Below are positions 10,607-28,800 of a stretch of DNA of 47,188 bases, one piece after another. Both the position numbers and the translations under genes were made by a program. This DNA is from an uncultured bacterium (GTDB lineage: Bacteria; Latescibacterota; UBA2968; UBA8231): NCBI GenBank assembly GCA_937942165.1, contig CALDFW010000020.1, forward strand, positions 1 to 47,188, in the 5' to 3' direction. The notes below the pieces were generated by a model, which was given only the letters and a program-made list of their open reading frames with translations, did not search any database and was not told where the DNA came from. Every line of letters starts with the position of its first letter. Within the stretch, counting starts at the first letter, position 1.

Positions 10607-13396
10607 TCAGAAATCCCACCCAAAAAAGAAATCCCAGTGGGTTTCGTCGCCAATCTGCTTAAAGTCGGTGCGGCGCGCTGCATCGAGTCGGAATACAAAT
10701 ACGCCGCCAAGCGCTAGGCGCATACCCGCTCCTAGTGCACCCCGCCATTGGTCAAATGAGCGGTTCCACGCGTTTCCCGCATCGGCAAAGAGCGCACCTC
10801 TAAAAGCGCTAAAATCTATGGCTCCGAAGGGAAACCCTATCACCAAGCGATCGACCAGTGGAAAGCGGAGTTCTCCGTTTATCAACACCATCTTACTTCC
10901 CCACAGAGAGCGCCACGGATAGCCGCGTAGCGTCCACGAGCCGCCGAGAGAGAAGTATTCCGGCACGTCTCCCATACTGTATCTTCCCATGTAGCGCATA
11001 GCCCAACTCGTGCGCTGAGAGAGCCGAGTATAGTGCCTGTAATCGCCGAAGAGCGTCGTATTGAAGCGACGTGAGCTTTTAAAGTCTACGGTTTGGCCCA
11101 AACCAACGCTAAAACGGTGGCCTTCAATGGGCCCCGTCGGCAACCACAGCGAGCTATCGTGCGTGTAATTGATAAAGTTGTTGGCCAACCACCCCGACAG
11201 CCGACGGCCTTCAAATTGACGATCTATCTCAGCGTGGCGCAGCGATAGGCGCGTTTCTAAGCGATCGTGCCGCGAAAAGGGATAGCTGACTCCTACGAAC
11301 CCTCCGGTGCGCTTCTCGCGCACAAAGCGGCCAAAGGTGCTAGAGAAGCGATCGTTTAGGCGAAAAAAGCCCCAGGACCAGTTGAGCTGTTGGCCTAGAT
11401 GATAGCGCGAGAGCGCGATATTCAGGCCGTCAAAAAACCCCGTTTGGCTGCCTGCAATATGCGAAAGGACAAAGGTGTACTGCTCGTTGCCCAACACGTC
11501 GCTCAGCGCCAGTTGAATCCCACCCGAGGTGCCAAATTGGGGATCTTGGGAAATCTGGCTCTGTGCGATGTCGAGCGACATATCACCGCGATAGGGCCGA
11601 AGGGCAAAGAGGCTCTCCTTGCGATCTCCTGCCAGCTGCCACGGCTCGCTTTCGGCCTCGACGAGCGGATACCAACTTACGGCCGTGCTATCGGTCGGCA
11701 ATCCGTCCAGTTCAAGCACCTGAAATCCGCCCGCTTCAAAGCCAGAAAAGAGCACGCCGTTGCCATCTGCACGCCACACGGGATCAAAGGCCCCGGTGAG
11801 AACGCGCGTTAGCCTACGCGTGCCAACGCGCTCTTCTCCTAGCTCCGCGACATACAGATTGAACGTGGAATCTCGATCGGAACTAAACACAATGGAGCGT
11901 CCATCAGGTGAAAAAGAGGGCGACTGATCGTTGTGATCACCCTGATCCAGATGGCGTATTCGGCCCCCGTCTAGCTCGTAGAGAAACAGACTGTAGCGCC
12001 CCTGCCGACCGCCGGCAAAGCGGTCTGAGCTAAAGGCAATCATCTGGCCATCGGGCGACCAGCACGGCTGGCGGTCGTGATAGACATCTCGAGTCAACCG
12101 TTCGAGCTGACCACTCTCCAAGTCGGCGATATATAGGTCGACGAACCCGCTCTGACCAGCCCCAGAAAAAGCGATACGCCGACCATCGGGCGAAAACGAA
12201 GGAGAGGAGATAGCCACGATTTCGTCATAGTTCAGAACGCTTAGCTCCCGCTTCTCTTCTACGTCCCATATATACAGGCGATCCCGCCCTCTGCTTTTTG
12301 CCGAGAAAGCGAGCATCTTCCCATCGGACGCAACGGCAATGGTCGTGGAGAGTGGGTGCAGAGATTCAAACGCGGGCAGACGCTCTCCCGCTACGATAAT
12401 CTCTGGGGCCTTGTCTTCTCTCTGAAGCGCAATCTGCGTATAACCCTGTGAGTTGGTGAAATAGACAAACATCAGGCTATCGTTTTTTCCGGGAACGATC
12501 GTGGGCTTTATATTGAACCCCTCGCCCGTGCGCACGTGGGCCATCTGAGAGGGCAGATCGCTCCCAGCGATATCAGGCAGATAGCGCTTGCGCAGGCTAT
12601 AGAGCCACGCCTCGTCAAACTCGGCCAGTGTCTCCCCCGTCGTCAGCAAAAAAACGTCTCTAAATGCCTCAGCCCGCCACCAATTCTGAAAGAGCTGCTC
12701 AAAGACATCTTCTCCGTAGCGAGCAGCCATAAAGTGACAAATCGACTCACCCTCTTTGTACATTTGAAACGTGCCGTAGATAAAATGCATCTGGGCGATC
12801 GAAGCAAGCCGACGCGAAAAGAGAGCATCCCGCAGGATCATGTCGCCAAAGGTCGACCATTCGCTAGACCAATACTCGGCTAGACCCTCTGTAAACCACA
12901 GCGGGGCCGGGCGAAAGTCGTGTATGCCGTGTCGCTCCAAAACGCGGGCAATCCGGTCAAAGGTAAATACGTGCACCAATTCGTGGTGCAGGACGCGCTC
13001 AAAGTCTGGCAGCGAACCGCTCAGCGGCAGGGCGACGCGACCCTTGAGATATTCGGTAAACCCCGCTACCCCCTCCGGCAGCAGGTTCGGTATGATATTG
13101 GTCTGTTCAAAATAGATATGCGACGAATACACGATGAGCGGAATGCGCCGCTGAACCGTATGAGCAAATTTTTGTTCGAGGTCGAGATACTGACCTTCGG
13201 CCATATGAGCTGCATAGGAAGCCAACTCCCGCTCTTCTTCAAAAAAGAACACGTCAAAGTGCGGCGTCTCCATCTTCTGCCATGAAAATTCGGCAAAGTT
13301 CACTTTGTTTTTGCCAAAGCCGCCAAACTGCGCGTGCAGCGGAGCCGCAAGCAGCAGTAGGAATAAAAACACTTTAGGCGCGTTCAAGATACCCAC
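10607..13396 (-). CDS. composite gluzincin peptidase / TolB-like propeller / Omp85-type barrel protein
   Basis: A 929-aa outer-membrane protein combining three parts. After a signal peptide (cut near HAQ, residue 23), residues 40-270 are a gluzincin (peptidase MA-like) domain with HELVH at 138-142 and WFTEGLAEY at 167-175, where E170 is the expected third zinc ligand. Residues about 290-590 hold TolB/WD40-like repeats (SPSFSPDGRRIAFSG, QPCWSPDGQMIAFSS, SPSFSPDGRSIVFSS). Residues 600-929 are a beta-barrel with the Omp85 L6 motif variant LRGYP (823-827), GELRFPL, FADAGNAWN and a terminal Phe. POTRA domains are absent. The start is GTG at 13396 (overlapping the upstream gene by 23 nt); a TTG at 13387, better spaced from AGAGGTGA, is an equal candidate. 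Confidence 0.85.
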   Translation of the reverse strand: MGILNAPKVFLFLLLLAAPLHAQFGGFGKNKVNFAEFSWQKMETPHFDVFFFEEERELASYAAHMAEGQYLDLEQKFAHTVQRRIPLIVYSSHIYFEQTNIIPNLLPEGVAGFTEYLKGRVALPLSGSLPDFERVLHHELVHVFTFDRIARVLERHGIHDFRPAPLWFTEGLAEYWSSEWSTFGDMILRDALFSRRLASIAQMHFIYGTFQMYKEGESICHFMAARYGEDVFEQLFQNWWRAEAFRDVFLLTTGETLAEFDEAWLYSLRKRYLPDIAGSDLPSQMAHVRTGEGFNIKPTIVPGKNDSLMFVYFTNSQGYTQIALQREDKAPEIIVAGERLPAFESLHPLSTTIAVASDGKMLAFSAKSRGRDRLYIWDVEEKRELSVLNYDEIVAISSPSFSPDGRRIAFSGAGQSGFVDLYIADLESGQLERLTRDVYHDRQPCWSPDGQMIAFSSDRFAGGRQGRYSLFLYELDGGRIRHLDQGDHNDQSPSFSPDGRSIVFSSDRDSTFNLYVAELGEERVGTRRLTRVLTGAFDPVWRADGNGVLFSGFEAGGFQVLELDGLPTDSTAVSWYPLVEAESEPWQLAGDRKESLFALRPYRGDMSLDIAQSQISQDPQFGTSGGIQLALSDVLGNEQYTFVLSHIAGSQTGFFDGLNIALSRYHLGQQLNWSWGFFRLNDRFSSTFGRFVREKRTGGFVGVSYPFSRHDRLETRLSLRHAEIDRQFEGRRLSGWLANNFINYTHDSSLWLPTGPIEGHRFSVGLGQTVDFKSSRRFNTTLFGDYRHYTRLSQRTSWAMRYMGRYSMGDVPEYFSLGGSWTLRGYPWRSLWGSKMVLINGELRFPLVDRLVIGFPFGAIDFSAFRGALFADAGNAWNRSFDQWRGALGAGMRLALGGVFVFRLDAARRTDFKQIGDETHWDFFFGWDF

Positions 13397-14456
13397 TCAC
13401 CTCTTCTTCAGCCCGTTCAAGGGGACGGCGAATTTCCACCTGACGCCCCTCTTCCAAGCCTGCTTGATACGCCTCACTAGGGCGCACTCCCCGCCCGTAG
13501 CGCACGCGCACGTGGGGGTTTATATGACGGTAGTACGTACGCAGTTTCTCATCGCCTTTCCATTGGACCAAGGCTCCGTTTTCCGTTCGCTCCGTCAAGT
13601 CGCGTTCGCGTAGCTTTCGGTAAAATCCTTCCATAACACCCGACCAATAGCGCTGCCTCTCGCGGTTCGACGCAATCCCTAAAGCGCGGCGATAGCTCTC
13701 CCACAGCGGCTCCATCAAACCAGTGAGATAGTCGTACACGTAGGCCGCCATTTCTATATTAGCGTCCGTGCCATATACCTCTAAAATTGTGGCCGACTGG
13801 TCGCGTGCTGGGATATACGTCTCTGCCCAAATAGTCTCTACAAAAAAGAAGTCCTGCAGAATAAGAGACAGCCAAAGCTCAAACGAAGCCCGACGGCCTT
13901 TTGCCGGCCCCAGAGACCGCCTCCCAAAATGGCGCTCCGCATCGAGAGAGACCACATCGAGGTTGTAGTCCAGCAATATCTGGCGTGCCTTGCCTACTGC
14001 GACCTCTGCTTCATGTTCATTGGGGCTCTGTGCCAGGGATAGAACCTTGCGCAGTCGCTGCAGCAGTCGATCCTCTGCGGTGGGTTTCCCCGTCGCTGAC
14101 ACCCCTCGTGCTCGGGGACTACAGCGCAGCTTTTCACAGGCTCTGCGAAAGGCTGGACCATGTGGGGGCTCCCCGCTTATAGCGAGCACCTCGTCGACAT
14201 ACTGATGGGCCATTTCGTGACGCAGCGTGTCGAGCACGTCAAGCCAAGGATCCTCTTCGATATGAGCTACAGCAATAACTAGCCGGCGCTCTCCCCCGTG
14301 CCAACGGCCTAGAAAAGAGCGTGCATCGACAATTTCAACAAGGGGTATACGAAGCGCTGACTGCAGATATTCAGCGTTGTAGTGCTGCCACCACAGCACT
14401 AGCTTTCGCGTCCAGGCTACGCGTAAATCCGCGGCCAGACGTGCCGCATCTTTCAT
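13374..14456 (-). CDS. SprT-like zinc protease-fold protein with DUF2786
   Basis: A 360-aa cytoplasmic protein with two recognisable parts. The N-terminal 110 residues resemble the SprT-like family: HEMAHQY at 80-86 gives an HExxH zinc site, with PHGPAFRRACEKL (about 98-110) supplying the downstream His typical of SprT/Spartan. Residues about 127-167 (EDRLLQRLRKVLSLAQSPNEHEAEVAVGKARQIL) match the DUF2786 pattern. The remaining region is helical and charged, with no motif I know. SprT-fold proteins can cleave DNA-protein crosslinks, but activity here is not shown. The gene starts 1 nt after the dapF-homologue stop and overlaps the start of the peptidase/barrel gene, so it is in the same transcript although it has no signal peptide. 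Confidence 0.8.
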   Translation of the reverse strand: MKDAARLAADLRVAWTRKLVLWWQHYNAEYLQSALRIPLVEIVDARSFLGRWHGGERRLVIAVAHIEEDPWLDVLDTLRHEMAHQYVDEVLAISGEPPHGPAFRRACEKLRCSPRARGVSATGKPTAEDRLLQRLRKVLSLAQSPNEHEAEVAVGKARQILLDYNLDVVSLDAERHFGRRSLGPAKGRRASFELWLSLILQDFFFVETIWAETYIPARDQSATILEVYGTDANIEMAAYVYDYLTGLMEPLWESYRRALGIASNRERQRYWSGVMEGFYRKLRERDLTERTENGALVQWKGDEKLRTYYRHINPHVRVRYGRGVRPSEAYQAGLEEGRQVEIRRPLERAEEEVSGYLERA

Positions 14457-14457
14457 A

Positions 14458-15327
14458 TTATCGAAGCGTGCGCAAAAACGATGGACTCAGGGTGCCGCGC
14501 GCGACCTCCTGCACGGGACCTTTCATCGTCAGCTCAAAGTTCTCGTCGACGTCTATATGCAGCGTGCCGCCCGGTGACTTAACGGTTACCGGCGTCTTAA
14601 CCAACCCCAATCGCACGGCCGCGCTCGCAGCTGCGCAGGAGGAGGATCCCGAAGCCTGCGTTTCTCCGGCTCCTCGTTCCCATATGAGAATGTAGATTGA
14701 GTTTGGTCCGAGTGGGACCGCCAGTTGGACGTTAATCCTGCGGGGAAAGAGCCTGTGGTTCTCCAACGCAGGCCCTAGACTGAGCAACTCTTCTCGCGTC
14801 CATTTCTCACCCCGTTCGCGAAAGAGGACGCAGTGAGGATTACCCACGCTAACGCCGGTAAACTGCATGCTCTCACCACCTACCTTAATGGGTTTCTCGA
14901 TCAGCTCTTTGCTCTTTAAGGTGCAGGGAAGGGCCTTGGGCTCAAACGTAGCTCGGCCCATTTCTACCGTAGCTGCGCTCGCTTCACCCAGCTCGTCGAC
15001 GTGCAGCTCTATCCGAACCAGCCCCCCTTTGGTTTCTACGGTAAACGATCTTTTGCGGACGCGACGCGTCGCGTGTAAATAGCGAGCAAAAATGCGCAAC
15101 CCGTTGCCAGACTTCTCGGCTTCGCTGCCGTCAGGGTTGTAAATACGCAGACCAAAATCGGCTTTTTTACTGTCGCTTAGCGCGAGAATTCCGTCTGATC
15201 CCACGCCCCAATTGCGGTCGCAAATCTTTCGAATATTTCCAGGAGTCAACTTAAAATCGAGTTCGGCAGGATCTACGGCGATGTAGTCATTCCCCAGACC
15301 GTGCCCTTTAAAAAAAGCGTTTTTCAT
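14458..15327 (-). CDS. dapF: diaminopimelate epimerase homologue with both catalytic cysteines replaced by serine
   Basis: A 289-aa member of the DapF fold. Canonical DapF interconverts LL- and meso-diaminopimelate for lysine and peptidoglycan synthesis with a thiol pair, Cys73 and Cys217 in E. coli. Family segments are clear: FFKGHGLGNDYI at the N-terminus, NPDGSEAE (65-72), SVGNPHCVL (about 168-176), RINVQLA and ERGAGETQ. The first active-site motif reads KSGNGLRIF instead of QCGNGxRCF, and the second reads ETQASGSSSCA instead of ETxACGSGACA, so both catalytic Cys positions are Ser. This paired change suggests an altered or different activity, for example another racemase/isomerase substrate. 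The ATG is well supported by GGAGG 5 nt upstream. It appears to be the first gene of the envelope operon. Confidence 0.85.
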   Translation of the reverse strand: MKNAFFKGHGLGNDYIAVDPAELDFKLTPGNIRKICDRNWGVGSDGILALSDSKKADFGLRIYNPDGSEAEKSGNGLRIFARYLHATRRVRKRSFTVETKGGLVRIELHVDELGEASAATVEMGRATFEPKALPCTLKSKELIEKPIKVGGESMQFTGVSVGNPHCVLFRERGEKWTREELLSLGPALENHRLFPRRINVQLAVPLGPNSIYILIWERGAGETQASGSSSCAAASAAVRLGLVKTPVTVKSPGGTLHIDVDENFELTMKGPVQEVARGTLSPSFLRTLR

Positions 15328-15360
15328 ATGTGCCTCCAGCGCTGCCCAAAAAAGCGAAAT

Positions 15361-15416: not shown

Positions 15417-15435
15417 TTGACCTCTAGGTGGTCAA
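15417..15435 (-). promoter_or_regulatory. TTGACC/GGTCAA dyad in the divergent promoter region
   Basis: TTGACC (15417-15422) and GGTCAA (15430-15435) form a perfect 6-bp inverted repeat with a 7-nt centre. Each arm also reads as a -35-like TTGACC on one strand. On the minus strand a poor -10 (TACTTT) follows 17 nt after the hexamer. The site lies between the divergent dapF-homologue and phosphorylase genes, so it could be an operator, a -35 element or both. Confidence 0.35.
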
Positions 15436-15479
15436 CTGCACTGGAGAGGCCGCTTTTCTCCTCATATATTAAAAAGATC

Positions 15480-16289
15480 ATGTTCTATATACACACGGCC
15501 CTACCAGCCGAAGCGCGTCCTATCATAGACCACTATGCGCTGCGCGCGCACGACGCCTCAGCCCCGTTTTCCCTCTATACGGGTCCCCAAACACGGCTCG
15601 TTGTTTCGGGCGTTGGGAAGACGGCTACGGCTGCATCCGTAGCCTACACCTGTGCCCGGTTTAGCGACCAGCCAGGTCCTTGGCTCAACGTGGGCATTGC
15701 CGGCCATAAAACGGCTGCGTTGGGGACCGCTCTCTGGGTGCAAAAGGCCGTAGATACAGCGACAAATACCCCCTTCTTCCCGGCGCTGGCGCTGTCTCCC
15801 CCCTGTGCTGGATCCGTTCTACAAACCGTTGATCAACCTCGCGCTGACTATTTGACCGATGCTCTGTATGACATGGAGGGCAGTGCCTTTTTTCAAACTG
15901 CACAGCGCTTTGTAGCGGCCGAACTCGCGCACAGTGTAAAGATTGTATCTGACAACAGCGAAGCTCCTTGGCAATCCCTTAACCGAGAGCGCGTCCAGGG
16001 CTGGATCAACGACCTCCTTCCGGTGATTGAACGCATGCGCACTGAGCTAGAATCACTGGCAGCAGTCTGGCTTATACAGCAGGCAAACCCGCCGCACTTT
16101 GAAGGTACGCTCAGCCAGTGCCGATTCAGCCAAACGCAGAAAAATAGGCTACGCCGGCTACTCCAGCAGTGGCATTCCGTAGCGCCGAACACGCCCCCTT
16201 GGCCACCGGATCACTCGGAGAAAAGTGCGGCCGGTCTACTCGATGCTCTCGAAGCCCGCCTTGGCGATCCGTCTCACCTCCCCTACTAG
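15480..16289 (+). CDS. nucleoside phosphorylase superfamily (MTAN/PNP-like) protein
   Basis: A 269-aa protein related to the purine/uridine phosphorylase and methylthioadenosine nucleosidase superfamily, which cleaves the N-glycosidic bond of nucleosides. Supporting segments are the N-terminal YIHTALPAEARPII, VVSGVGKTATAASVAY (about 43-58), WLNVGIAGH (about 69-77), and DMEGSAFFQTAQRF (about 131-144); the Met-Glu-Gly and the preceding Asp correspond to the ribose- and base-contacting region of the family. The last 80 residues have no clear match and may bind a partner. I place the start at ATG 15480; the open frame to 15417 would add 21 residues with no homology. The 3' neighbour starts 2 nt after the stop. 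Substrate unknown. Confidence 0.75.
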   Translation: MFYIHTALPAEARPIIDHYALRAHDASAPFSLYTGPQTRLVVSGVGKTATAASVAYTCARFSDQPGPWLNVGIAGHKTAALGTALWVQKAVDTATNTPFFPALALSPPCAGSVLQTVDQPRADYLTDALYDMEGSAFFQTAQRFVAAELAHSVKIVSDNSEAPWQSLNRERVQGWINDLLPVIERMRTELESLAAVWLIQQANPPHFEGTLSQCRFSQTQKNRLRRLLQQWHSVAPNTPPWPPDHSEKSAAGLLDALEARLGDPSHLPY

Positions 16290-16291
16290 CC

Positions 16292-17311
16292 ATGTTCAAG
16301 ACGATCTACGTTGAGGAGGCCGTAGCACACCATCCACGCACGCTGGCCACGCTGGCCCGTTTTAGCGACGCGCAGCGCATCCCCTGTAAGCACTATGGTG
16401 AGGTCTTTAATCGCGCGGCGCAAAACTTCCGCCTACAAAAGCGCCAGCCGTCTCTGATCCTGGCCGAAAAACGAGGACAGCAAGTGCTACCTACGCCGGC
16501 AGGATACGGCATAGGAAGTCAGACGAACTTCTATTTTTCCCATATGCTGAATTGCTTGTACGACTGCCGATACTGTTTTCTACAGGGCATGTACCGAAGC
16601 GCCCACATGGTAGTATTTATTAATTACGAGGATTTTTACGAAGCAATTGATGAACAGATTGAGCAGACCTCTACAGAGCGCCCCTACTTTTTTTCCGGAT
16701 ACGACTGCGACAGCTTAGCCTTAGAGGGTATAACGGACTTTACACGAGATTTTCTCACCTTCTTCGCCCAGCGCCCCCATGCAACGCTAGAGCTGCGCAC
16801 CAAGAGCGTGCGCACCCATTCACTGCTAGAACGAGATCCCTTGGACAACTGCGTGGTCGCCTTTAGCCTGACGCCCTCCGCGATTGCAGACGTGCTAGAG
16901 ATAGGTGCACCACCTGTCGCGCGGCGCATAGAAGCCCTCGGGACACTAGCCGACCGCGGATGGCCCATTGGCCTCCGCTTCGACCCTCTGCTCTATCATA
17001 GCAAATGGCGCGAACACTACCGCAAACTATTTGAAGCCGTCTTCGCACGACTGCGCACCGACCGCCTACATTCTGTCAGTCTAGGCCAATTTCGCCTTCC
17101 GCAAACCATGTATAAACGCATGCAGCAGCTCTATCCCGATGAGCCACTCTTTGCCTGGGGGTTGGCGGAAAAAGATGGACAGATTTCCTATCGCAGCGAA
17201 CTGGCGGAGAGCCTGCACGCTTTTTGCCGCGACGAACTTTTGCAGCATATAGATCCAAACATCTTTTTTCCCTGTCCATCCACCACACTAAATGACGGTG
17301 TAGCACCGTGA
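16292..17311 (+). CDS. spore photoproduct lyase-like radical SAM protein
   Basis: A 339-aa radical SAM enzyme of the SPL family. The cluster motif CLYDCRYC (about residues 86-93, CxxxCxxC) fits the SPL spacing, preceded by the typical IGSQTNFYFSHMLN and followed by FLQGMY. A Cys in SGYDCDSLALEG aligns by eye with the hydrogen-donating Cys141 of Bacillus subtilis SPL (region ACTSDIVGIDH). SPL reverts the 5-thyminyl-5,6-dihydrothymine photoproduct in DNA. Since the organism shows Gram-negative traits, the role is probably UV or other base-damage repair outside spores, or another radical reaction. The longer frame to 16169 lies inside the upstream gene; ATG 16292, 2 nt after that stop, is preferred. 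The end overlaps the next gene (GTGA). Confidence 0.85.
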   Translation: MFKTIYVEEAVAHHPRTLATLARFSDAQRIPCKHYGEVFNRAAQNFRLQKRQPSLILAEKRGQQVLPTPAGYGIGSQTNFYFSHMLNCLYDCRYCFLQGMYRSAHMVVFINYEDFYEAIDEQIEQTSTERPYFFSGYDCDSLALEGITDFTRDFLTFFAQRPHATLELRTKSVRTHSLLERDPLDNCVVAFSLTPSAIADVLEIGAPPVARRIEALGTLADRGWPIGLRFDPLLYHSKWREHYRKLFEAVFARLRTDRLHSVSLGQFRLPQTMYKRMQQLYPDEPLFAWGLAEKDGQISYRSELAESLHAFCRDELLQHIDPNIFFPCPSTTLNDGVAP

Positions 17312-18006
17312 ACGTACTCATTACAGGCTCTTCCTCTGGCATCGGACGGGCGCTGCGCGACGGCCTTCTTGCCGCCAATCACACGGTTGTCGGTATCGCA
17401 CGTCGGCGGCAGGAAGCGACCGATCGCTTTTTTCCCATCGAGTTAGACCTGAGCGACCTCGACTCTCTTCCCCGGGCAATGGACAGACTACAGGGCACCC
17501 ATTCTCCAATAGACGCCGCTGTCTGCTGCGCAGGACGCGGCCATTTCGGAACGTTAGAACAGTTTTCTCCCTCGCAGATACGCGACTTGATTGACCTCGA
17601 CTTTACCAGCCATGCGCTTGTTGTGCGATCTCTACTGCCGGCCATGAAGAAACGACGTGCCGGTAGAATTGTGTTATTGGGATCGGAAGCTGCGCTGCGC
17701 GGCACTCAAAAGGGCACCATATACTGCGCTGCCAAATTTGCGCTGCGCGGCTTTGCGCAAGCACTCCGCGAAGAGACCGCTCGGCACGGCATTGCGGTAA
17801 CGCTCGTCAACCCGGGTATGGTGCGCACGCCTTTCTTTGATGAACTCAGCTTCAGCCCCAATAGGGACGATTCGTGCGCGATAGAACCGACCGACGTTGC
17901 CCAGGCCATTCACGATGTCCTACAAGCTCGCAGCGGAACGGTATTTGATGAGATCAACCTCTCTCCCCAAAAGCGCGTTATAGATTTTAAAAAGAAAGGT
18001 GACTAG
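17308..18006 (+). CDS. short-chain dehydrogenase/reductase (SDR)
   Basis: A 232-aa classical SDR unrelated in detail to the one at 2096-2866. The cofactor-binding TGSSSGIG lies at residues 6-13, with ARR at 31-33 hinting at NADP(H). CCAG (73-76) stands in place of NNAG, Ser126 and Y139xxxK143 (YCAAK) complete the catalytic set, and PGMVRTPF follows. The start is GTG at 17308, overlapping the TGA of the SPL-like gene by 4 nt, which implies translational coupling. Its product may act on the same substrate class as its neighbours, but nothing in the sequence fixes it. Confidence 0.9.
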   Translation: MNVLITGSSSGIGRALRDGLLAANHTVVGIARRRQEATDRFFPIELDLSDLDSLPRAMDRLQGTHSPIDAAVCCAGRGHFGTLEQFSPSQIRDLIDLDFTSHALVVRSLLPAMKKRRAGRIVLLGSEAALRGTQKGTIYCAAKFALRGFAQALREETARHGIAVTLVNPGMVRTPFFDELSFSPNRDDSCAIEPTDVAQAIHDVLQARSGTVFDEINLSPQKRVIDFKKKGD

Positions 18007-20887: not shown

Positions 20888-23800
20888 TTAACGGAGCAGC
20901 AGCAAGCGACGCACGTGCGTTTTTCCCGCGATATTGAGGCGGTAGAAATAGGTCCCCGACGCCACGCTATGACCGCTATCATCGCGCCCGTCCCACTGCA
21001 GGACGTGCATACCAGGCTGGAGCGTTCCGGAGAAGAGCGTGCGCATCTTCTGTCCCAAGCCGTTGTAAATGGCCACGTCTACACGAGCACCGTCCCCAAC
21101 CCCTACGGCAAAGGGTATCGAGGTTTCTGGGTTGAATGGATTGGGATAGTTCGGAAGCAGAGCGCTGACAGACGGCGGCGATGGACTCCGATCTAATTGC
21201 AAGCGGACCAACGTGCCGTCTGCTCGCAGGATGTGGCCTTCTACCACCTGCGCTCCAACCGGCAGCGTCCACAGCTGGCGCACGGCTTCCAACGCCTGCT
21301 GCGATGAAGGCTGCGCAACCAACAGACGCGTGGCGTCTCCTTCATTCCAGGCCTGCATCTGACCTCCCCCTCTTCTCCACGGTGACTGAGCGAGCGATAG
21401 AGAGGCCACATCACAGTCCGAAAGTAGTAGGGAAAGGCCCGTAATATCCTCGGACTGCCCCAGCCTCAGCGCTCCCTCTTCATCAAGGGAGACCAGGGCG
21501 TGCACGGCGGCCCGCTTAGCCGCATCCAGTGGAGTTCGTTCCATCCCAACGCGCCCAAAGTTTTCCGCCAATAGCATAAAGTCGTCTAAACCAACCATAT
21601 TATCGCCGTTAAAATCAGCCTGAACGGCTGCTCGATTGGCGTATACAGTGGTATTAAAGTGATCCACTAGGATTGCAAAGTCGGCCAAATTGATGCGATT
21701 GTCGTCGTTGGCATCTCCCACCGGAAGCTGTTGGCTCGTATCGCTGACCACCCATTCAAACGCGAGCAGCGTATCGCCGAGTTCAGCCCCGACCTCTATT
21801 TGATCGCCAACGACGTGGCCCTGAAGGTGGATGTCTGATTTGACGAGCAGGCGATACGCCCCGGGTGGAATTTGCCCCAAGTTAAACTGACCGTCTGCAT
21901 CGAGCGTGTGCTGTATACCCGCCCTGAAACGGTCTTCGTCATTAATGGGCGAAGCGAGCAGCACATCCTCGTCGTCGTAGAAAAGCAGAGACACCTGCAT
22001 ATCGTCACTTTTACCCTGTAGGCCAACGCGTCCCTGCACCGAATAATCGCGTACGGCAATTTCGGTTGGTCGGTCTGGAATAAAGGGCGGAATCCAATCA
22101 CCTGCGCTGTTGACCACGGCACTGCTGCGGTTGAGATCGGGTTCATCATCGATACTGATCAGCGCAATCGTATCGACCCGAGTCACAAATCGTAGTTCAC
22201 CCAGTAGCACGGGGCTCACCCCCGAATTGATAAGCGGATTGGCCATGCTCTGCGCGAGGGACAGATTCACCTTACCCAATCCGTTTCCATGCAGCTCGTT
22301 TTGTACAGATCGCCCTTCAAAAGCACTCGCTAATCTGAAGGGTTGAACGCCGGTAAAATCTTCGCTCTCGGCGCTTATTACAGAGTCCGTCAGCACGTCA
22401 ATCAGGTCTAAGCTCTCCGCATCATAGCTCATGTAGAGCGAGACGCCGGTAAGGTCGTGCGCCGTGGGCACGATATAGGCTCGCACCAGCAGCGTATCCC
22501 CGATACTAAAGTGCTTCTCATTGGCCACTTCGAGCTCAAAAAAGGGCGAGGGTTGGGATACGGCCCACACGGTATCGGACGGTGCCGATTTCACGCCTGC
22601 ATTCCCAGAAATCACGTAGTAGAAAAATGTGTCGGCCAGCGTGGCAGCCGGATCGATAAACCTGCGCGTTCCGGCGGCAAGCGTATCGATTGACTCATAC
22701 GCCCCCTCTCTGGTCTTGGAGCGAAAGATGCTGTATCCAGTCGTCCTGCCCAACTGCTCGTCGAGTTCAGGTGCCTGCCATACCACTTCGATCTGACGAC
22801 CTAAATCGCGCCCGAGATCTCGAGCTTCTACTGCGGTCGGCGGATGCGGTGGATCTCCCAATCGCGCGTCTTCGTTTATAAAGATCTGCATCTGGCCATC
22901 GGCAGAGGATAGAGCTGCAATGTCGTTTGCTCCATCGCCGTTGACGTCCAGTATCGCCGTGCGCCGCAGGGGCACCTGAGAGGCGATAATATCGCGCACT
23001 ACAAAGCCCTCTCCAGCCTCGTTTTCTAAAAAGGCAATGTATTCTCCTGCGGAGCTAGCTACGACCAGATCACTGTAGATGTCTCGGGTTAGATCTGCAA
23101 AATACATATCCGCAATAGGCAGGTTGACGTTGATGCGCTGCGTCAGCACCAACTGGCCTTCACCGTCGTTGGTCAACACGCTGACGTCGCGCGAGGCGCG
23201 ATTGCCCACCAAGACATCGTTATCACCATCGGCGTCAAAGTCGAGCACCTGCACGCTGACCGGCTCGAGACCTACCGCATAATCGCTGCGCGCAAGAAAT
23301 CCCCCCTCCCTATCGGCCAGCAGCACGGACACCGTGCCGTCTATACTATTGGCTACAACTAAATCGCGCCGATCATCGGCGTTTAAGTCGCTCGCAGCCA
23401 GCGCCATCGGCCCCTCGGGAACGCGCAGCGTCGCACGGGAACTAAACGTGCCCCGCCCACCGTTGTACAGCACGGTTATTGAGGCATCGTCCCAGTTGGC
23501 CGTGGCCAGATCGGCATCCCCATCAGCGTCAAAATCGGCGGCTACCACATCGGCGAGTGCATGACCTATGTATATATCGCTGCGATCGCCATTAAAGGCT
23601 CCCAAACCGTCATTGGACAGGAGGGAAATAGACTGCGCTATTGGATCGGCGACAATCAGATCCAGCGATCCATTAAAAAGGGGCGCTACGGCTAGGGCAA
23701 CGGGCCGATCCCAGCGTTCATAAGGCGTATTCTCTTCCGGAAAGGCCTTCGCATCGTCAAAAGCCCCCAGCCCATCATTCAGGTGAATACGCACCTGTCC

Positions 23801-25840
23801 CCCCGCACTGTCGGCCAGCGCTAAGTCGGGCTTTCCATCGTCGTTAAAATCAGCGACGAGTAAATCGGCCGCTCCGCTCCCAGCCAAGATCGGCTCCTGC
23901 GCACTGAGGGAAAGCGCTCCACCCGCGCCCAGAAGTTGGATCGTAGTGCTAGACGAACTGCCCAGCGCATCGCTTTCAATTGTAAGGACGGCGCTGTGCA
24001 CGCCCGCTTCTATGGGAGAAAATTGAAGACCCATTTCCCGCACTCCGCCCGGTGCAATGCGCAGCGGTGCTTGCACGTCAGCAGAAAACGACCCGCCCTC
24101 TATAGACAGCGAAGAAATATTGAGATCGGCATTGCCGCTATTGGAAAGCTCGATGGTTTCGACGCGCATACCCATCAAGTCCACTGTACCAAAATCGACT
24201 GCATAACTCGACAACGTGATATCGGCCGCCGTTCCCACACCGTCAACCGGCACCTCACGTATGATCCCCTGGCTGGCCGACACGATTAAATCTGAAGAAA
24301 TACCACGGGCTACTAGCGGCACAAATCGCAGCCGCACAAGCGCCTTTTGCCCGGGAGAAAGCGAGGTCGGAAGCTGGTTGAGCACGCGAAAGGCCGAATT
24401 CTCAAACAGAGCGTTACGCAAATCTAGGGTAGCATTGCCCTCATTGCTTAGCAGGATCGTCGTATCCACGTAGGAACCAATCCGGACAGAGCCGAAGTTT
24501 AAAGCACTTGGCTGGACGGTCAGGCGGGCCTGCACACCGGTACCCACCAGCGCGATCCGTGCACTTGCCTGTTCTGAGTCGTTGCTGCGCAAGACCATCT
24601 CCGTGGATTCGATGCCCGATGCGTTGGGCTCAAATCGCACCTGAACGCTGCCCGTCTCACCCGGGTCAACCGTGAGCGACACGGGCGTTACGCTGAAGGC
24701 ACTCTCTCGATCTATGCTAATATTTGAGACCAAAAGGGGCGCGTCCCCCTCGTTGTAAATAGTGAGTGGAAGTGACTGGGCCTGCCCAACTCCAACGGCT
24801 CCTAGATCGAGTCGTTCTACATCGGCGCGGAAACGCGCTTCAGGCTCAAATTGAATAGTCGAGATCCCCTCTCCGCGCGTGAGTCCAAAAATGCGTTTCT
24901 CATCGCCCGGCAGCACGCCAATCCAGCGCGCACTCAGATCCTCCAAACCCGTGTTGATCGGCGTCCAGCCCCGTCCAGCGTCTTTTGACCTGAAGAAACC
25001 GCCCGTGGCCGTTGCCACATAGAGCAGGTCGGCGCGATTGAGATCCAGCGCAACGGAGCGCACATTCAGATCCGATAAGCCCTCGTTGGCCGTGTGCCAA
25101 TTGGCACCGCCGTCCTCGCTTATAAAGACGCCAGCGCCGTAGGTACCCACCGCTGCAAACGCACTCGTTTCTAACTGATCAGACAGCGCGATACTGTGGA
25201 TGCTCTGACCTGCCAAATCGGCTACAGACTCCCAGCTCGTTCCCCCGTCATAGCTGACAAAGAGCCCTACGCTTGTCCCCGCATAGACCGTCTCATTCTG
25301 AAAGGGATGAACGGCCAGAGTAAATACGATTTCGAAATTTGTATCCCCTCCCACCAACTGCCAAGTTTCCCCTGCATCTTCGCTCAGATAAACACCCTGC
25401 CCAAACGTTCCGACGTATACCCGCCCCTCAGAGCCGACACCCACCGAAAGCACACCGCTCGAAATGCCTGCAACCGAACGCCATTGACGACCTCCGTTGT
25501 CGCTTATCAACAGGCCGTTATTGACTCCTGCATATAGTCGCGTAGCTCGAGACGGATCAACGGCCATGCTAAGGACACTCCGGTCGACCAACTGCACTCC
25601 GCTGGGCTGCCACGTATTTCCGGCGTCTTCACTGCGATAAAATCCGTTGGCCGCTCCGGCAAAGAGCGTGTCGGGACGACCCGGATGGAAAGCCAATCGA
25701 CTCACTGAGGCACCTATTCCGTCCTCTACGCGAGTCCACACATTCAGACCTGCAAGTACCGGCGAAACTAGGCCGAGGCCGAGCCAGACCCAAACACTCC
25801 ACAGCAACCCGAATCTCTTTGCATATAGCATCATAGTCAT
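20888..25840 (-). CDS. giant surface protein: Asp-box propeller, ASH domains, FG-GAP propeller, cohesin-like, dockerin, sorting domain
   Basis: A 1650-aa exported modular protein. In order: signal peptide (1-31); a BNR/sortilin-like propeller with six Asp boxes such as SEDAGNTW, SDNGGRQW and SYDGGTSW (about 32-335); three choice-of-anchor-D/ASH immunoglobulin-like domains of about 100 aa (335-645); an integrin-like FG-GAP/VCBS propeller with DFNDDGKPDL, DFDADGDADL and DVNGDGANDI calcium loops (650-990); a fibronectin III domain; a cohesin-like domain (LTGVSLYMSYDAESLDLI); a carboxypeptidase-regulatory-like domain; a dockerin (GDANDDNRINLADF and DFNGDNMVGLDDF); and a FlgD-like C-terminal domain starting PNPFNPETSIPF and ending RRLLLLR. 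The frame extends to a TTG at 25867, but ATG 25840 gives a cleaner signal peptide. No catalytic domain is seen; adhesion or assembly is inferred. Confidence 0.88.
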   Translation of the reverse strand: MTMMLYAKRFGLLWSVWVWLGLGLVSPVLAGLNVWTRVEDGIGASVSRLAFHPGRPDTLFAGAANGFYRSEDAGNTWQPSGVQLVDRSVLSMAVDPSRATRLYAGVNNGLLISDNGGRQWRSVAGISSGVLSVGVGSEGRVYVGTFGQGVYLSEDAGETWQLVGGDTNFEIVFTLAVHPFQNETVYAGTSVGLFVSYDGGTSWESVADLAGQSIHSIALSDQLETSAFAAVGTYGAGVFISEDGGANWHTANEGLSDLNVRSVALDLNRADLLYVATATGGFFRSKDAGRGWTPINTGLEDLSARWIGVLPGDEKRIFGLTRGEGISTIQFEPEARFRADVERLDLGAVGVGQAQSLPLTIYNEGDAPLLVSNISIDRESAFSVTPVSLTVDPGETGSVQVRFEPNASGIESTEMVLRSNDSEQASARIALVGTGVQARLTVQPSALNFGSVRIGSYVDTTILLSNEGNATLDLRNALFENSAFRVLNQLPTSLSPGQKALVRLRFVPLVARGISSDLIVSASQGIIREVPVDGVGTAADITLSSYAVDFGTVDLMGMRVETIELSNSGNADLNISSLSIEGGSFSADVQAPLRIAPGGVREMGLQFSPIEAGVHSAVLTIESDALGSSSSTTIQLLGAGGALSLSAQEPILAGSGAADLLVADFNDDGKPDLALADSAGGQVRIHLNDGLGAFDDAKAFPEENTPYERWDRPVALAVAPLFNGSLDLIVADPIAQSISLLSNDGLGAFNGDRSDIYIGHALADVVAADFDADGDADLATANWDDASITVLYNGGRGTFSSRATLRVPEGPMALAASDLNADDRRDLVVANSIDGTVSVLLADREGGFLARSDYAVGLEPVSVQVLDFDADGDNDVLVGNRASRDVSVLTNDGEGQLVLTQRINVNLPIADMYFADLTRDIYSDLVVASSAGEYIAFLENEAGEGFVVRDIIASQVPLRRTAILDVNGDGANDIAALSSADGQMQIFINEDARLGDPPHPPTAVEARDLGRDLGRQIEVVWQAPELDEQLGRTTGYSIFRSKTREGAYESIDTLAAGTRRFIDPAATLADTFFYYVISGNAGVKSAPSDTVWAVSQPSPFFELEVANEKHFSIGDTLLVRAYIVPTAHDLTGVSLYMSYDAESLDLIDVLTDSVISAESEDFTGVQPFRLASAFEGRSVQNELHGNGLGKVNLSLAQSMANPLINSGVSPVLLGELRFVTRVDTIALISIDDEPDLNRSSAVVNSAGDWIPPFIPDRPTEIAVRDYSVQGRVGLQGKSDDMQVSLLFYDDEDVLLASPINDEDRFRAGIQHTLDADGQFNLGQIPPGAYRLLVKSDIHLQGHVVGDQIEVGAELGDTLLAFEWVVSDTSQQLPVGDANDDNRINLADFAILVDHFNTTVYANRAAVQADFNGDNMVGLDDFMLLAENFGRVGMERTPLDAAKRAAVHALVSLDEEGALRLGQSEDITGLSLLLSDCDVASLSLAQSPWRRGGGQMQAWNEGDATRLLVAQPSSQQALEAVRQLWTLPVGAQVVEGHILRADGTLVRLQLDRSPSPPSVSALLPNYPNPFNPETSIPFAVGVGDGARVDVAIYNGLGQKMRTLFSGTLQPGMHVLQWDGRDDSGHSVASGTYFYRLNIAGKTHVRRLLLLR

Positions 25841-25853
25841 ACCGCGTATCAAC

Positions 25854-28800
25854 CTATCGAAGCACAATCACCGGACGGTGATAGCGCTGTCCACCTGCAA
25901 TCAGTTCGACATAATACACGCCGGCCGCAACCCGACGTCCCCCGTGATCCTGTCCGTCCCATCCCACGCTCCACACGCCAACTTCTTGAAACCCGTCTAC
26001 AACCGTGCGCACAGACTGACCCAGTACGTTGTAGATCTGTATGCGCACGGGACCCGGCAGCGATAGACCGTATTCGACTCGCACGATCTCGACATCCGTC
26101 AACACCGCGGGATTGGGATAGACCAGCAGGTCTGGAACTGCCTGTATCTGGTCTGCTGAAACGCGTCCGACTCGATAGAGTCCAGGCCTAGTGATCGGTG
26201 CGGCAAGCCAGCCCGTCGCACCCTCTCTCCGCGTGGGCAGAGCATCCCAGCGTTGGTCGCCTTCATTCCACTCCAAGACGCCGAGCGTATCATCAGCATT
26301 TGCACCAGATATAAAGTTGACCGTAACGGGCGCGCTCCAAGCACGTCCGCCGAGCAGGTCAATCGAATAGACGGGCTGCCCTTCACTTCCCAACGGTACC
26401 TCATTGGGATGGACGCGGTAAATAATGGCCATTTGGCCAGGCTGAGCCGCAGTACTTGGAATATTGAGCATGAGCTGTAGGTCGGGACTCTGCACGTTGG
26501 CACCCACTTCGTCTACCCAAGCCAGTCCAATTTCCTGACGGCGCACCCCTTCATTACCCCCGCGATCTCGACCCCGTACAACCGCTTCTACATACTGCGT
26601 ATCTTCCCCGGGATCGTGCACGTAGGATGCTACATAGGTGCTATCGCTGCGACGTACGACCTCTAGATCTTGGCCGTGAACGCTTATTGAAGGGGGGGCG
26701 ACCAGCGACTCATCAGGTATGACGACAAGCTCTATTAACTCGCTGAATACGGGATGCCTTTGCACCGTGAGAGCGAACTCAGGCGCGCGCAGATCCTGTT
26801 CGATCAATACGCTTATTTCGGCCTCAGCTACATTGCCTTGAGGATCGCGCACCGCAACGGGCAGTAAGCGGGTACCGCTCTGCCCGGCGGGAACGAAAAC
26901 GAACAGGCGCGCGCCCTCTAGACGAGCCGTTATTCCCGCCTGCGCTTCCACGCTCCATACGAGTTCTCCAACAGGTGTATCCGCATCGTTTACAAAGACC
27001 CCGAGATCAATCTGCTGTTCGGGATTACCCGCAGTTAACAGAATCTGGGGCAGCTCGGAGATTTCGGGCGCTACGCCTCCCCGCAGCACGACGACTTCGA
27101 CCGTCGTCAGCTCCGTATTGCCCACGGGATCCCGCACGACAAACTGTATCTTCTCTATCGAAGGACCGGCCGCACTGGCATCGATGGTCACGACGTGCGT
27201 TGCAGGATCAATTGAGACAATAAGTGCTTTCTGTCCGCTAGCAGACCAGACCAATGCATCGTCTGGATCATCATCTACTACGTATTCGTCCAAATCTATA
27301 GACGTATCGATCTGTCCCTCTTCCACTTCAATACGCGGCAGGGGACGCACCTGAGGCGACAATCCCATGCCGTTAACCACAACTTTCAGCTCCACCGCAT
27401 TCTTGCGTCCCGTCACATCCGTCGCCTCAACGATAAGCGTCTCCGAGCCGGTAAATTCTCGGTCGCTTAGCGACAAATAGAGGCGCGATGATTCACTATT
27501 CACCTCAGCGCGTATGCGCCCTTCTGCCAGAACGCTCCACGCCAATTCCGGCGTCGGACCGCCGGCCCCTCCCACCGCGTAGTCTCTCAGCACGATACTC
27601 GAATCCACTCTTCCAGCAATCAGTTCAATCTCGGGCAGCGTTTGCAGTGAAAAAAGCGGAGGGAGCCCAACAGTCAGCAACCCCGTGCGCACGAGTCCGT
27701 CCGTATCGGTAACGCGCACCACGACCTGCGTCGCAGAGAGCGCATTTTGCTCCGTTCCGTCGCGCCGCAACAATAAATCATGCGTTATGCGGTTAAACTG
27801 GACAGTCACTCCTGGCTCGGGCTCTATTTGCCATACGAGCTCACTCTCGTGATCTACGTCGTCATACACGTAGTCGTCTAAATCGACGCGGGCGGTTTCT
27901 TCCATGCGCTCCAAGCTAAAAGCGGGAAATTCTGCCAGCTGCGGAGGCTCACCGCTACGCGCTAGGAGAACCGGCACAATAGCCTCGTCGCCGTTCCCCT
28001 GAGGATCGGTCACGCTCACGCGCAGCTCAGCCGGATTTATGAACCCATCGGTAGCGCTTACGTTCAGCGTCCGCGTCGCCACGTCAAACACCCCTTCAAC
28101 ACCCTGCGTCGGAAAGAAAGACCAGCTCAGGGTCTCGTCGCTGTGATCGGGATCAGCGGCCCAGGAATCCAGTTGGATTTGGACATTTTCACCTTCCCTC
28201 AAACCGACCTTAGCCGCCGTGCTTAAACGCGGTCCGAGATCGTCCTCGCTGCGCAAGATACTGACTCGCACCGTGCGCTGATCGCTATTGCCATCGGGAT
28301 CAATGGCCGCGATGGCAAGGTTACCTGAACCTGCAAAACCGCTTTGACCGCGAATCTGGAGCACCCCTGCTGAGATAGATGCAACCAATCCACTGTCCGC
28401 CTGAACGGACCAACCCAATTCTTCAACCGGGCTGTCATCGCTCACGTACCCATTTAGATCGACGGTGGCCGTTTGCCCACCGCGAAATCGAACTTCGGCC
28501 AGTTCGGCTAATTCGGGCCCCACGGATTGCCCCTCTTCCAACACAATCGCCACCTGACGGGTGGAGGTGCGCGCGCCAGAAGTATCCTGTGCTGTGATGT
28601 GCACAATTCCACGAGCGGCCTGAAATCCGCTGACGAGAACCTGTCTATCGACTACCTGTGCCCCTATCGGACCTTCCACTTCGAGAAAGACCTGCATTGA
28701 TTCGATCGGATCGTCCCGATCAAACACGATATCTTCAAAGGGAATAGAAACTGCCCCCCCACCGATTGCGGGGTAAACAGTCTTGAGCTGTTGTCCTTCT

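Follow-up and report, generated by a model that had tools for sequence, protein, structure and literature searches.

The DapF protein encoded in the window (the whole stretch of DNA analyzed here, 47,188 nucleotides) is probably a functional diaminopimelate (DAP) epimerase that converts LL-DAP to meso-DAP, with a pair of serines replacing the thiol/thiolate pair. DapF is the textbook two-cysteine thiol/thiolate racemase. We infer the catalytic activity of Ser/Ser DapF from homology, the predicted fold, the retained ligands, its occurrence as the sole copy, and a DAP pathway without Ddh. Across at least eight phyla, the evidence leans modestly toward an ancient DapF lineage that makes meso-DAP for the cell wall and lysine by inverting the unactivated alpha carbon of an amino acid through a pair of serine hydroxyls, without any catalytic thiol; in that case, cofactor-independent amino-acid epimerization would not require the thiolate pair. 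Ser/Ser DapF is a mechanistic variant of DapF, neither a new family nor evidence of a new reaction. It is apparently undescribed in the searchable open literature: no report of a natural Ser/Ser DapF was found in open-access papers (subscription papers were outside the search).

The dapF-type open reading frame (ORF) of 289 amino acids lies on the minus strand at positions 14458 to 15327; it begins with ATG and is preceded by a GGAGG ribosome-binding site (15333 to 15337, minus strand). Profile searches matched the protein to the NCBIfam DapF model TIGR00652 with 233.8 bits (cut-off, 114.65) over residues 4 to 280 and to PF01678 with 180.5 bits, and a sequence search of the PDB returned DapF structures; against the CntK histidine racemase model (NF033599), it scored 14.5 bits, below the cut-off of 300. 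In the alignment, Ser73 and Ser226 coincide exactly with Cys73 and Cys217 of E. coli DapF. Ser73 (codon TCT, positions 15109 to 15111, minus strand) lies in motif 1, NPDGSEAEKSGNGLRIFAR (Asn64 to Arg82; 15082 to 15138, minus strand), where it is preceded by Lys72, and Ser226 (codon TCG, positions 14650 to 14652, minus strand) lies in motif 2, ERGAGETQASGSSSCAAAS (Glu217 to Ser235; 14623 to 14679, minus strand). A preliminary description had reported a DapF homologue with both catalytic cysteines replaced by serine, and the profile match and the two codons confirm it: re-reading at the DNA level gave TCT and TCG, which excludes cysteine codons, and the protein lacks both of the cysteines that define a thiolate-pair DapF. 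Sequencing error and pseudogene formation were ruled out by more than 200 Ser/Ser sequences with intact ORFs. Site 1 serine codons among relatives are of both the TCN and AGY types, so that neither chance nor sequencing error accounts for the serine. All 64 members of one sequence set (A2) matched TIGR00652. The TIGR00652 equivalog annotation admits proteins without either catalytic residue.

The preliminary description also held that the rest of the fold and the substrate motifs are retained, which the predicted fold and the alignments bear out. The AlphaFold2 model of the window protein has a mean pLDDT of 96.9, and its best fold matches in the PDB are DapF structures, with TM scores of 0.89/0.92 against the closed Anabaena DapF (9mro). 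The two catalytic positions are at the N termini of two central helices, as in the DapF fold: Ser73 caps helix 74-86 and Ser226 caps helix 227-239. In closed Anabaena DapF, six residues bind the ligand at its two amino-acid ends (PMC12039745), and the window protein carries all of them: Asn11, Asn64, Asn157, Asn190, Glu208, and Arg209 (E. coli numbering). Among dereplicated Ser/Ser rows, the last three are invariant (118 of 118) and the three Asn residues at 11, 64, and 157 are each present in 117 of 118, compared with a median column majority of 49%. Judged from these alignments, retention of the distal-end ligands would not be expected of a dead enzyme or of an enzyme for small amino acids.

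This constraint bears on the reading that the protein is a catalytically dead DapF kept as a structural element or a regulator, much as E. coli DapF also binds and stimulates RppH. Such a role would fit the loss of both catalytic cysteines, and E. coli RppH-DapF complexes are present in the PDB. We regard it as highly improbable: conservation of the active-site ligands is near-absolute, no alternative source of meso-DAP was found above cut-off, and the serine at site 1 survives switches between AGY and TCN codons, indicating that it is selected as serine.

Apart from the ligands, other active-site positions differ between the two forms. Residue 72 is Lys in 127 of about 221 Ser/Ser rows and Met in 58 of 59 Cys/Cys rows, and residue 229 (E. 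coli 220) has changed from Gly to Ser in 136 of 224 Ser/Ser rows and in none of 60 Cys/Cys rows. The window's subclade carries both changes (Met72→Lys and Gly229→Ser), and residue 72 belongs to a loop bent around the substrate (position from PMC12039745). In Ser/Ser proteins of Solirubrobacterales and Acidobacteriota, both changes are mostly absent. His159 of E. coli DapF, kept in the window protein as His165 (14833 to 14835, minus strand), is invariant in Cys/Cys proteins and relaxed in Ser/Ser proteins, with Gln, Asn, or Val in many of those from Solirubrobacterales and Acidobacteriota; the substitutions suggest that this residue is no longer required in part of the Ser/Ser proteins. A single universal compensating residue was ruled out, with Lys72, Ser229, and Cys166 each missing from some Ser/Ser subclades.

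The cysteines that do occur raise the alternative that the active-site cysteine was relocated and that the enzyme is still thiol based. Nearly all Ser/Ser rows have Cys36 (212 of 219), and most have Cys166 (181 of 224), which occurs in 6 of 60 Cys/Cys rows. However, Cys36 is common in Cys/Cys DapF as well (51 of 60), Cys166 is lacking in about one-fifth of the Ser/Ser rows and Cys231 in one-third, and the reaction requires two bases on opposite faces. A universal cysteine specific to Ser/Ser DapF was looked for among the Ser/Ser rows and none was found, and a relocated thiol is scarcely plausible.

In the window's own family and class, all 38 DapF sequences inspected were Ser/Ser, including that of the window's genome, and a DapF match was found in 54 of 60 relatives; in other classes of the phylum, the DapFs that could be read at full length were Cys/Cys. 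Ser/Ser DapF also occurs in Nitrospirota, Gemmatimonadota, Acidobacteriota, Thermoleophilia, Myxococcota, Chloroflexota, and Armatimonadota, giving a total of at least eight phyla. GTDB genomes were scanned for the Ser version of motif 2, which was found in at least 117 places. The matches listed included 87 Ser/Ser, 21 Cys/Ser, and 1 Gly/Ser, with 7 incomplete at site 1; they came from Nitrospirota, Acidobacteriota, Gemmatimonadota, Actinomycetota, Myxococcota, Chloroflexota, Armatimonadota, Aminicenantes, and other groups, and the cultured members among them were Nitrospira moscoviensis NSP M-1 (closed genome) and Pyrinomonas methylaliphatogenes K22. A family-based sample of Nitrospirota, drawn independently of the motif, gave 48 Cys/Cys, 30 Ser/Ser, and 1 Ser/Cys; mixed Ser-Cys pairs are accordingly uncommon, with 1 among the 79 sequences of this sample. 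Solirubrobacterales had a single DapF in 61 of 61 genomes; all 60 complete sequences had the Ser/Ser pair, and one fragment had Ser at site 1.

DapFs in which only the second cysteine is replaced (Cys/Ser) were observed at loci L110, L070, L086, L098, L107, L128, and others, in hosts that include Rubrobacter, Nitriliruptoria, Acidimicrobiia, a Zixibacterium, and a Poribacterium. The reverse mixed pair, in which only the first cysteine is replaced by Ser, was seen only once (L255, 2452-3831, genome G129).

A maximum-likelihood tree of 73 DapFs was built after deletion of the catalytic columns. One group held 40 of the 42 Ser/Ser rows, with a support of 85/86, below the program's star level; the other two belong to a lineage of carbamoyl-phosphate synthase-DapF fusions. 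Actinobacterial Cys/Ser sequences fell near the base of the main Ser/Ser group, in a weak placement, and the tree offered only two to three independent pairs for judging correlated change at the two sites. The N. moscoviensis DapF is 76% identical to the window protein, an identity that suggests transfer between phyla. In the fusion proteins, the large chain of a carbamoyl-phosphate synthase is followed by a DapF domain at the C terminus (L076, 1150-5169; L158, 3670-7743; L081; L137); their ORFs, of about 1340 to 1360 amino acids, are from metagenome-assembled genomes of Clostridia and Synergistaceae and have Ser at catalytic site 2.

Whether a Ser/Ser DapF must supply meso-DAP depends on the rest of the pathway. 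Ddh bypasses DapF, whereas DapL yields LL-DAP, for which an epimerase is still required; LysA consumes meso-DAP. DapL was ruled out on this principle as a replacement for DapF, and the earlier suggestion to look for it as a check was misdirected; only Ddh would serve. No Ddh (TIGR01921) above the curated cut-off of 180.6 bits was found in any of 27 Ser/Ser genomes, the best match being 122 bits in genome G067, and a Ddh bypass was ruled out at this cut-off for these genomes. A second, Cys/Cys DapF, also proposed as a check, was not found in the window's genome (3.46 Mb in 221 contigs, 74% complete), where the Ser/Ser protein is the only DapF detected. One DapF each was likewise found in four complete relatives (G018, G024, G027, and G030), in N. 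moscoviensis, in P. methylaliphatogenes, and in eight more genomes reached through loci, one of the eight being Cys/Ser. Ser/Ser DapF is thus usually the sole DapF of its genome, and a second Cys/Cys copy was ruled out for the window's class and most others.

The exception is three Nitrospirota genomes (G075, G085, and G094) with two DapFs each (L244, L246, and L248 versus L245, L247, and L249). The Cys/Cys copy is in a lysA-dapF-dapB operon, and the Ser/Ser copy is beside rpe-like and PASTA-domain genes. In these genomes, Ser/Ser DapF is either redundant or otherwise employed.

These two-copy genomes favor the view that the Ser/Ser protein binds DAP but catalyzes another reaction, or acts on a DAP-like substrate such as lanthionine or modified DAP, with meso-DAP coming from an unrelated enzyme. 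It is also consistent with the proline racemase superfamily, in which replacement of one Cys by Thr accompanies dehydratase activity (PMC4113996). We consider this view unlikely; the protein is the only DapF in most genomes, which have no Ddh, both proximal and distal DAP ligands are retained, and an undescribed epimerase would be demanded in many phyla.

Organisms with Ser/Ser DapF appear still to need the epimerase reaction. In N. moscoviensis, DapL (623 bits), LysA (545 bits), and DapB all scored above their cut-offs, DapA adjoins LysA, MurE has the DNPR motif (DAP type), and the sole DapF is Ser/Ser. The window's genome encodes DapB and a MurE with the DNPR motif. LysA was not found in this 74% complete genome, no DapL-grade match was found in the window's own family, and the LysA-like proteins of complete relatives in that family are below the LysA cut-off, so that the case for the window's lineage rests mainly on MurE and DapB. 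Two LysA-like proteins below cut-off, from complete genomes of the window's class (L285, 5979-7292; L287, 5801-7210), have an unusual HIGSGSDPEV motif. The peptidoglycan of Conexibacter woesei is of the A1-gamma meso-DAP type, and meso-DAP is given as a diagnostic trait of the entire order Solirubrobacterales (PMC3035278); Ser/Ser is known from the sampled genomes of that order. Of the two readings offered in the preliminary description, a divergent epimerase is supported and a different reaction in the DapF fold is disfavored by the kept DAP ligands, the sole DapF without Ddh, and the meso-DAP order.

Against a serine pair stands its acidity: cysteine is by far the stronger acid, and the alpha proton to be exchanged has a pKa near 29. 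For epimerization by the serine pair, the enzyme would close on DAP in the manner of Cys/Cys DapF, with the alpha-carboxylate held by backbone amides at the N termini of helices 2 and 4 and by the hydroxyl of Ser/Thr228. The helix dipole would acidify one serine, possibly aided in the window's subclade by the adjacent Lys72 and Ser229. That serine would abstract the alpha proton, and the other would donate a proton from the opposite side; the least certain step is the role of serine alkoxide/alcohol as both bases. Also against this mechanism, engineered C67S and C209S mutants of HisR, a DapF-fold racemase, lost most activity (PMC11602996). In its favor, a natural 4-hydroxyproline 2-epimerase with Ser93/Cys255 is active (PMC4113996).

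By analogy, this Ser-Cys 4-hydroxyproline 2-epimerase (UniProt B9K4G4) is the nearest precedent for Ser/Ser DapF: it is natural and cofactor independent and has a DapF-like fold with one Cys replaced by Ser, although only a single Cys is replaced and both substrate and subfamily differ (proline racemase superfamily). The window protein resembles the DapFs of E. coli, H. influenzae, and Anabaena in its fold, its length, the GNG/GSS helix N termini, and the proximal and distal DAP ligands. Unlike classical DapF, it has Ser for both catalytic Cys residues, and its subclade has Lys72 and Ser229 instead of Met and Gly. Equal substitutions were made singly in H. influenzae DapF (C73S and C217S; PDB 2q9h and 2q9j), and both structures are among the structural matches; those mutants were engineered to slow catalysis for crystallization, whereas the window protein has a natural double replacement with companion changes. 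O-ureidoserine racemase and the histidine racemases CntK/HisR share the DapF fold and cofactor independence with the window protein but, according to the literature, use a cysteine pair, and they act on other substrates.

If Nitrospira, Conexibacter, and many Acidobacteriota and Gemmatimonadota obtain their meso-DAP through Ser/Ser DapF, the thiolate pair is not essential, and the accepted chemistry of DapF may be incomplete. Exchange of the alpha proton by a weak acid would then become testable in a well-studied fold. DapF is a proposed antibacterial target with thiol-reactive inhibitors; cysteine-alkylating DapF inhibitors of the aziridine type would be expected to be inactive on Ser/Ser bacteria.

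The gene neighborhood was rejected as a clue to a new function. It consists mostly of unrelated housekeeping genes (uvrC, tyrS, pyrF, miaA, sorA-like, and degP), and only the miaA-dapF adjacency, found in Thermoleophilia and Chloroflexota, is informative and speaks for the epimerase reading; next to miaA is the known place of ordinary actinobacterial dapF. In the window, a SprT-like/DUF2786/DUF7168 gene (13374 to 14456, minus strand) starts one base after the dapF stop and is syntenic in the family; it is considered separate from the epimerase function. It is followed by a gene for a protein with a PD40 beta-propeller and an Omp85 barrel (10607 to 13396). The order of dapF, SprT-like, and PD40/Omp85 genes is limited to much of the window's family and some members of the class. 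The proposal that dapF is the first gene of an envelope operon thus holds approximately at the local scale; the broader neighborhood varies.

Divergent from dapF, on the plus strand at 15417 to 18006, are PNP-like, spore-photoproduct-lyase-like radical SAM, and short-chain dehydrogenase genes, which are syntenic in several relatives (L042 and L132). Farther on, six very large ORFs of 1305 to 1659 amino acids form a run at 20888 to 46417. The ORF at 20888 to 25867 contains repeats and a C-terminal stretch, NYPNPFNPETSIPF, typical of secreted sorting domains.
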